Of a stretch of 64,000 nt of DNA, positions 47,056-48,185 are shown in pieces. The DNA is from Tenacibaculum dicentrarchi (GTDB taxonomy: Bacteria; Bacteroidota; Bacteroidia; Flavobacteriales; Flavobacteriaceae). The notes beneath the pieces are model-generated. The model saw nothing but the letters and a program-made list of their open reading frames with translations, did no database searches and was not told the origin of the DNA. The translations under genes were made by a program, and so were the position numbers. Positions within the stretch are counted from its first letter, which is position 1. Every line of letters begins with the position of its first letter. The stretch lies in contig NZ_OZ038524.1 of the NCBI RefSeq assembly GCF_964036635.1, forward strand, positions 2,744,269-2,808,268. Direction: 5' to 3'.

Positions 47056-47089
47056 TTTGTTTTTTCTTAACAAATATTTAATATATTTG
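47056..47089 (+). promoter_or_regulatory. Promoter of the Roadblock-type operon
   Basis: TTTG (47056-47059), a 22-base spacer, TATATTTG (47082-47089). The predicted start near 47096 leaves a leader of about 60 bases. The rest of the 317-base gap 46840-47156 shows only AT-rich DNA. Confidence 0.55.
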
Positions 47090-47156
47090 TAGTGGTGAAA
47101 TTTTTTACACCATATTACACCCTTCATAGTATTTTTTAGATCTAATATTTTTTTTT

Positions 47157-47486
47157 ATGAATTTAAAAGAGTTGTACAACAGTACAAAATCTAAAGCAAT
47201 TCTCCTATTTGACAAGGAAGGGAAAATTGTAGAAGTACACAGTAAAATTACTTATGAAAACCCTGAAGATTTTTCGGCGGTAACTAAAGTTGTTATCAAT
47301 ATAATTGATAATTTTTTTACTGATGTCTTAGAAACGACACCATTAACCGAAATAATTATAAAAACTACTGATCAAAATTTTTATATAAAAAAATGTGACG
47401 ACGACCATATATTATGTGTCTTATCAGATGGTGTAATGAATAGAAGTTTAATTAGTCTTTCTTTAAAAAAAGACAATGACAAATAA
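47157..47486 (+). CDS. Probable Roadblock/LC7-fold protein, gene 1 of 3
   Basis: 109 residues. The pattern fits the Roadblock/LC7 fold: an opening helix, a strand AILLFDKEGKIVEVHS, a long helix DFSAVTKVVINIIDNFF, a strand TEIIIKTTDQNFYIKK, a strand DHILCVLSD, and a last helix. No signal peptide or catalytic motif. Such proteins dimerise and bind small GTPases (as MglB binds MglA) or build scaffolds. The family call is by secondary-structure pattern, not by a search. First gene of an operon with the next two, which follow at 26 bases and then overlap. Confidence 0.5.
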   Translation: MNLKELYNSTKSKAILLFDKEGKIVEVHSKITYENPEDFSAVTKVVINIIDNFFTDVLETTPLTEIIIKTTDQNFYIKKCDDDHILCVLSDGVMNRSLISLSLKKDNDK

Positions 47487-47512
47487 TAAATAACATCTAA
47501 AAAAAAGTAGCA

Positions 47513-47887
47513 ATGACAGACATTTTAAATGATTTAATTAAAAACGTAAGTGAAAATATCCCTGGATATATAGCATTAAGTGTAACCGAAATAGAGTCTG
47601 GTGAGACTTTAGTTTCAGATTCAGTTAAATCTGATTTTGATATTGACTTGGCTTCTGCGTATAATTTAGAAGTAGTAAACGCTAAATTAAAAGCAATCAG
47701 TGTTTTAGGATTAAATGAAGAAGTTAAAGATATCACCATTACTTTAACCGATCAGATTCATATTATAAATATTGCACCTAATGGTGGATATTTTATTTAT
47801 TTAGCTATTGATTCAGCTAAAGCAAATATTGCTATTACAAAAACATTACTTAACAAATATAAAGCAGATTTAAACAATGCCATATAA
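47513..47887 (+). CDS. Probable Roadblock/LC7-fold protein, gene 2 of 3
   Basis: 124 residues. It looks more typical of Roadblock/LC7 than its neighbour: IPGYIALSVTEIESGETLVS (first hairpin), a central helix SAYNLEVVNAKLKAISVLGL, KDITITLTDQIHIINI, GGYFIYLAIDSAKANIAI and a closing helix TLLNKYKADL. Two related but diverged proteins in one operon suggest a heterodimer. No MglA-type GTPase gene is in the window. The stop overlaps the start of gene 3 by 11 bases, so translation is coupled. Confidence 0.6.
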   Translation: MTDILNDLIKNVSENIPGYIALSVTEIESGETLVSDSVKSDFDIDLASAYNLEVVNAKLKAISVLGLNEEVKDITITLTDQIHIINIAPNGGYFIYLAIDSAKANIAITKTLLNKYKADLNNAI

Positions 47888-48185
47888 GCCATTAGATTTA
47901 TCTAATTTTAAAATAGACGCGAAAGTTGCGTCTATTTTAAAATTAGGACAGCAAGAATATCAAAAAATACTAGGTATTGAATTGATAAACGACCAAATAA
48001 ATAACGAGATAAGCCCTGTAACAACAACTACAAAAATAGTAGAAGCCAAAGATGCAGAAACTAAAAATCTCGAAATCGAAGTGGAAGTAGAAGAAGGGAA
48101 AAAGATATCTGAAGTTATTTTTGATTTTCTTTTTGAACCTAAATTTGATAATATGTTAACAATGTTTTCTAAAAAAGCAGTCTAA
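47877..48185 (+). CDS. Small acidic protein, gene 3 of the Roadblock-type operon
   Basis: 102 residues. The N-terminus MPYKPLDLSNFKIDAKVASI is followed by a helix LKLGQQEYQKILGIELI, a Thr- and Glu-rich linker (40-80), and a hydrophobic C-terminal helix ISEVIFDFLFEPKFDNMLTM. I recognise no family. Overlap with gene 2 suggests a complex with the two Roadblock-type proteins. It may be an adaptor whose two ends bind different partners; this is inference. Confidence 0.55.
   Translation: MPYKPLDLSNFKIDAKVASILKLGQQEYQKILGIELINDQINNEISPVTTTTKIVEAKDAETKNLEIEVEVEEGKKISEVIFDFLFEPKFDNMLTMFSKKAV

Follow-up and report, generated by a model that had tools for sequence, protein, structure and literature searches.

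A predicted Roadblock-type gene module in Flavobacteriaceae and its association with Aer-like PAS proteins

Ragulator is built from LAMTOR1 and two Roadblock heterodimers, LAMTOR2/3 and LAMTOR4/5, and its small extended subunit recruits the complex to the membrane. We analyzed a three-gene operon (genes A, B, and C) of Tenacibaculum dicentrarchi that lies in the window, by which we mean the whole 64,000-nucleotide stretch studied, the final 64 kb of a 2.81 Mb genome assembled as one contig. By sequence, the operon resembles Ragulator in that two Roadblock subunits are encoded together with a small extended subunit. It differs in having no Rag-type GTPase, and membrane binding by C, like any acylation signal, is putative. 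MglB-type Roadblock proteins regulate a small GTPase in Myxococcus, and PMC7949163 describes a Myxococcus xanthus complex in which MglB pairs with its paralogue MglC, a very different Roadblock protein with less than 9% identity. Like MglB/MglC, which acts with MglA and RomR, the operon combines two dissimilar Roadblock-type proteins (known here from sequence alone) in a gliding bacterium; unlike that system, it comes with no MglA-type GTPase found in the genome, and its third gene encodes a small tailed protein. The Group 1 Rup system (PMC4316618) is also a conserved small signaling operon of the same genus and encodes a small GTPase together with a sensor kinase, whereas the Rup operons that we read contain no Roadblock gene and the Rup-type small GTPase is absent from the eight module-bearing Tenacibaculum genomes tested.

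The aerotaxis receptor Aer is the closest described relative of a family of PAS proteins linked to these genes. The best solved relatives of the PAS proteins are two aerotaxis-receptor entries (E 4e-34 and 5e-32), and the proteins keep the RHPDMP segment of the Aer-type PAS domain and the tryptophan that follows it. In contrast to Aer, they are only about 170–250 aa long, and Pfam scans of three members (180–218 aa) returned PAS families only, with no chemoreceptor signaling domain in any of the three. Each of three elements is known separately, namely Roadblock pairs, Aer-type PAS domains, and small-GTPase systems; in the open full-text literature searched, no paper on the module or on this combination was found by title or start of abstract (subscription papers and preprints lay outside the scope of the search).

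Gene layout and protein families

The initial annotation described three short genes with a 26-base gap and an 11-base overlap, and the ORF coordinates confirm this arrangement: three adjacent plus-strand ORFs, with the gap between A and B and the overlap between B and C (Table 1). Three ORFs of at least 100 aa on this strand did not arise in any of 2000 base shuffles of the operon stretch. Comparison with orthologues in two relatives gave dN/dS values of 0.04–0.12 for A, 0.07–0.14 for B, and 0.30–0.51 for C, indicating that all three genes are under purifying selection, which is least stringent on C. Among the matches listed, the B protein of the window is 99% identical to a protein of Tenacibaculum finnmarkense TNO006 and 98% identical to one of T. 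dicentrarchi TDCHD05. The third gene had been described as encoding a small acidic partner; C is indeed acidic (pI 4.76), but so are A (pI 5.09) and, more strongly, B (pI 4.39). The most hydrophobic 19-residue stretch in any of the three proteins has a mean Kyte–Doolittle value of at most 1.35, which fits a cytoplasmic location. Of the single promoter that had been proposed, what stands is a candidate TTTG/TATATTTG pair; its upstream half is absent from one of two aligned orthologues, and a sigma-70 scan returned 16 sites compared with 14.8 in shuffles, which is no excess. The promoter before A is therefore only suggestive.

Table 1. Positions of the operon features within the window.
Feature	Coordinates	Strand	Description	Evidence
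Promoter-like pair TTTG / TATATTTG, 5' of A	47056..47089	+	Spacer of 22 bases	Weak
Gene A	47157..47486	+	Roadblock/LC7 protein, 109 aa	Pfam PF03259, profile–profile comparison, dN/dS
Gene B	47513..47887	+	Divergent Roadblock-like protein, 124 aa	Profile–profile comparison, four genome copies, dN/dS
Gene C	47877..48185	+	Small third component, 102 aa	Position conservation, dN/dS
Codons for aromatic C-terminal segment of C	48117..48182	+		Alignment of C proteins

Sequence profiles identify A as a Roadblock protein. It scored 27 bits against Pfam PF03259 (Robl_LC7; cut-off 23) and matched an outside Roadblock profile, built from 19 sequences of other Bacteroidota gathered via PF03259, at 97.7% and E 1.6e-12 in hhalign. 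The Robl_LC7 match was recovered at E up to 1 in 53 of 57 aligned A proteins. The three other A paralogues of the genome went unreported by the same profile at E 0.001, and we therefore regard A as a divergent member of the family.

The assignment of B is less direct. B exceeded the cut-off of no Pfam family and matched no NCBIfam family at E 0.01; when 93 B proteins were compared with Pfam, Robl_LC7 was absent among the families listed, and a single protein touched MAPKK1_Int (E 0.0022). The B profile found no convincing match among solved structures. Against the outside Roadblock profile, B aligned end to end (residues 6–122) at 85% and E 6.2e-6, with a score of 37.0 compared with 10.8 for the reversed profile and at most 17.5 for 20 column shuffles. 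Several relatives of B carry the UniRef name "Roadblock/LAMTOR2 domain-containing". Direct comparison of the A and B profiles gave a weak match (19% in one comparison and 1.3–2.6%, inside the shuffle range, in another), so the assignment of B depends on the outside profile. We conclude that B is most likely a divergent Roadblock protein. The Roadblock pattern that the initial annotation had read into the first two genes is thus borne out for A by the Pfam cut-off and for B by profile comparison with controls.

Copies, gene order, and distribution

The genome carries four copies of B, two of them in tandem, each with an A gene before it and a C-type gene after it. The same order, A-B-C or A-B-short C, recurs in the other Tenacibaculum regions that we read, with three exceptions: L029 has B alone, L026 has B alone behind a PAS gene, and L034 holds a degenerate A/B copy. 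In Flavobacterium and in five genomes of other genera the A-B pair is retained and the small gene is often divergent, upstream of A. The order of A and B is thus kept in several genera. A gene of 50–140 aa occupies the C position in 47 of 53 A-B pairs (defined by non-identical A) compared with 97 of 663 control pairs, which are other same-strand gene pairs from the same loci (p 1.6e-29, with orthologues not thinned). These 47 genes comprise 32 downstream and 15 divergent ones, the latter still including an 82 aa gene (L077) that looks spurious; a C-like gene in L329 lay past the distance limit and outside the count. The enrichment agrees with the earlier suggestion of a third subunit accompanying the pair.

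A sample of 296 Bacteroidota genomes contains 12 Robl_LC7 matches in Flavobacteriaceae, spread over 10 genomes, and every one of them is an A gene beside a B. In Flavobacterium and Capnocytophaga, B often stands without an A. The distribution of B is patchy: it occurs in 9 of 36 Tenacibaculum genomes, 13 of 196 genomes of an order sample, and 11 of 347 genomes of a family sample. These counts omit one Tenacibaculum match (E 0.0066) that belongs to a different gene by length and neighbors and one order-sample match (E 9.8e-4) within an 894 aa frame, taken as a chance match. Because many loci are orthologous, locus counts do not represent independent events. From the genes, their profiles, and their order we conclude that A, B, and C constitute a Roadblock module, as defined by sequence and so far seen in Flavobacteriaceae.

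Several neighboring features were noted in passing. The degenerate copy (L034:8696-8923), in which the start of A runs into mid-B, adjoins an intact A-B-short C copy. A protein of about 150 aa that resembles the zinc-ribbon part of IS1595 transposases is encoded shortly after B in L125, L127, L128, L132, and other Flavobacterium loci; members of this family lie close to B at 35 of 80 named loci, a single member has a sub-threshold match to Zn_ribbon_IS1595, and the protein may be a domesticated transposase fragment or a remnant. In two Flavobacterium loci (L071 and L084), and in no other genus, B adjoins a gene that by eye resembles the GTPase Obg, probably by chance. Three Capnocytophaga loci (L219, L224, and L228) hold further strongly diverged B-like proteins, sometimes paired, one of which (in L228) is aromatic-tailed.

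PAS proteins, gliding genes, and C-terminal tails

Short PAS proteins (about 170–250 aa) are encoded in 8 of 122 B-bearing loci, several of which are orthologous. PAS and B lie 38 bases apart in L026 (Tenacibaculum). In L300 (Capnocytophaga) the spacing depends on where B is taken to start: with the first start codon the two genes overlap by 7 bases, and with the next ATG they are also 38 bases apart. By eye, the two PAS-B pairs look orthologous. The association extends to whole genomes. Among 20 Tenacibaculum genomes, picked from 36 for completeness (B-bearing G012, 67% complete, was omitted) and used for both the PAS and the GTPase comparisons, a PAS protein occurs in all 8 genomes with B and in 2 of the 12 without it (p 3.6e-4, ancestry ignored). 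Weak matches in G006, G015, and G020 (E 5e-10 to 2e-12, in frames of 437–1646 aa) were dropped, and the PAS-bearing total is therefore 10 of 20 rather than 13. In Flavobacterium, the figures are 10 of 11 B-bearing compared with 2 of 6 B-less genomes (p 0.028, ancestry ignored), the B-less set being the 6 in the order-sample listing and leaving out unlisted B-less genomes. In the genus Capnocytophaga, both families occur in 20 of 20 genomes. In the family sample, after one match in a 656 aa frame was dropped (G583), PAS occurs in 6 of 11 B-bearing and 11 of 336 other genomes (p 2.1e-6), or, counted by genus, in 3 of 7 and 7 of 196 (p 0.0027), ancestry being ignored in both tests. Outside Tenacibaculum, Flavobacterium, and Capnocytophaga, none of 5 B-bearing genomes has a PAS relative, and 10 genomes have PAS without B. 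The link between B and PAS is therefore clear in three genera and is not obligatory. Separately, two loci (L232 and L234, in G596 and G803) carry four PAS genes in tandem, and B was found in neither genome.

We read the surroundings of PAS genes in 27 Capnocytophaga regions, from 67 PAS matches. In 4 of the 27, from four genomes (L229, L302, L303, and L304), the PAS gene immediately precedes gldK-gldL-gldM in the same orientation. The three gld genes of L229 exceed the NCBIfam cut-offs for GldK, GldL, and GldM, the PAS proteins beside gldKLM are without the tail described below, and the four loci probably trace to one event. Of 11 Capnocytophaga B loci, 9 have a PorP/SprF-type gene (family tested in L116) upstream of B, probably representing one syntenic locus and a single event. 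This gene context hints at gliding or type IX secretion and is not proof of it.

An aromatic cluster, a pattern picked after viewing the sequences, occurs within the last 25 residues of 38 of 64 PAS and 22 of 32 C proteins. The same cluster was seen in 11 of 1646 background proteins and in none of 48 A or 120 B proteins. A motif resembling F.KYR, also picked after viewing, is present in 15 of 15 divergent C proteins (hand-picked), 4 of 32 downstream C proteins, and 4 of 546 small background proteins. The C-terminal end of Escherichia coli MinD binds the membrane. With this end as a fixed query and the 99th percentile of the background as threshold, a MinD-like tail was found in 53 of 94 PAS proteins compared with 15 of 2172 background proteins; by the same measure it is present in only two of the 15 divergent C proteins and one of 127 B proteins, and absent from all 54 A proteins and from all 32 downstream C genes, which are of the type in the window. 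A hydrophobic-moment test set neither C nor PAS apart, and MinD itself scored low in it. PAS proteins from B-less genomes have basic, aromatic tails too. From these sequences, many PAS proteins could plausibly be anchored to the membrane, whereas for C this is no more than a suggestion. In another reading, the tails of C and PAS would point to a shared docking site.

Candidate functions of the module

The explanation that we favor, with a probability of roughly 0.45, is that A and B form a GTPase-independent Roadblock scaffold that is recruited by C and works with Aer-like PAS sensors. A and B would pair as a heterodimer, and C would take the pair to its site of action, perhaps via the aromatic tail. 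The assembly would then serve as a scaffold for the short cytoplasmic PAS proteins, which would bind to it and sense redox or energy state. The copies of the module may represent separate branches, each perhaps with a different sensor. That the output goes to the gliding/type IX secretion motor is a guess. Counting against this explanation are the presence of PAS in only 8 of the 122 B loci, the B-bearing genomes without PAS and the PAS-bearing ones without B outside the three genera, the disregard of ancestry in the p values, the poor match between the A and B profiles, the lack of a MinD-like tail in the C of the window, and the untailed PAS proteins beside gldKLM. We consider distinctly unlikely the most specific version, in which a tethered Roadblock heterodimer that needs no GTPase would link short cytoplasmic Aer-like redox sensors with the rotary gliding/type IX secretion motor and so give Bacteroidota an aerotaxis-like pathway independent of chemoreceptors and MglA.

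Alternatively, the module may be a redox- or PAS-linked regulator that acts outside motility, for instance on transport or metabolism. Most B loci adjoin unrelated genes, and B occurs in just 11 of 347 family genomes, so the module is not a general part of the motility machinery. Against a role outside motility stand the PAS genes beside gldKLM in four Capnocytophaga genomes and the PorP/SprF-type gene that precedes B at most loci of this genus (9 of 11), although each probably reflects a single event. On balance, we regard this alternative as somewhat unlikely.

The precedent of Myxococcus, where a Roadblock protein regulates a small GTPase and pairs with so dissimilar a paralogue, would allow A-B to act, as MglB does, on a small GTPase whose gene lies elsewhere. 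The ORFs adjoining the module include no MglA-type small GTPase, in agreement with the initial annotation, which accordingly had placed the partner elsewhere or taken the complex to be self-contained. Such a partner did not emerge from our profile searches: the four Arf-profile matches in this genome fall in long frames (422, 474, 529, and 954 aa), and the Rup-like GTPase profile gave none at E 1e-15. Nor did the Arf profile detect a small GTPase of 161–169 aa in any of the 8 module-bearing genomes among the 20 Tenacibaculum. Because the Arf and Rup-like searches revealed neither an MglA-type nor a Rup-type small GTPase in the genome, we judge an MglB-like role of A-B unlikely. Of the two roles first suggested for the module, GTPase regulation thus loses ground and a scaffold fits better.

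The small GTPase is present in 9 of 12 Tenacibaculum genomes without the module compared with 0 of 8 with it (p 0.0014). We considered and dropped the idea that the module replaces the GTPase: in the family sample, the Rup-like GTPase occurs independently of B (in 3 of 11 B-bearing genomes compared with 72 of 336 others, p 0.71), and we therefore take the exclusion in Tenacibaculum as a clade effect. In the five Tenacibaculum genomes in which its surroundings were read (L213-L217, in G034, G006, G001, G013, and G024), the 161 aa GTPase belongs to a four-gene operon with two further genes and a gene for a hybrid histidine kinase, named by eye. This arrangement fits the Group 1 Rup system as described in PMC4316618.

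Least probable is a reading of A-B-C as a selfish or mobile cassette that has no fixed cellular role, with the PAS link a by-product of shared ancestry. This reading draws on the patchy distribution, the several and tandem copies per genome, the one degenerate copy, and the transposase-like zinc-ribbon gene seen close to many Flavobacterium B genes that stand alone; it is opposed by purifying selection on A, B, and C and by the occurrence of A, B, and a small gene together across several genera.

For signaling to the gliding/type IX secretion motor, binding of the CheY-like PorX to PorL is one proposal (PMC5005315), and a 2025 study places direction control at a conveyor-belt-associated protein (PMC12239597). 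If the scaffold explanation is true, and if its output is indeed this motor, the module would offer a concrete, testable input path to it. It would also be a bacterial Roadblock pair that works without a small GTPase.
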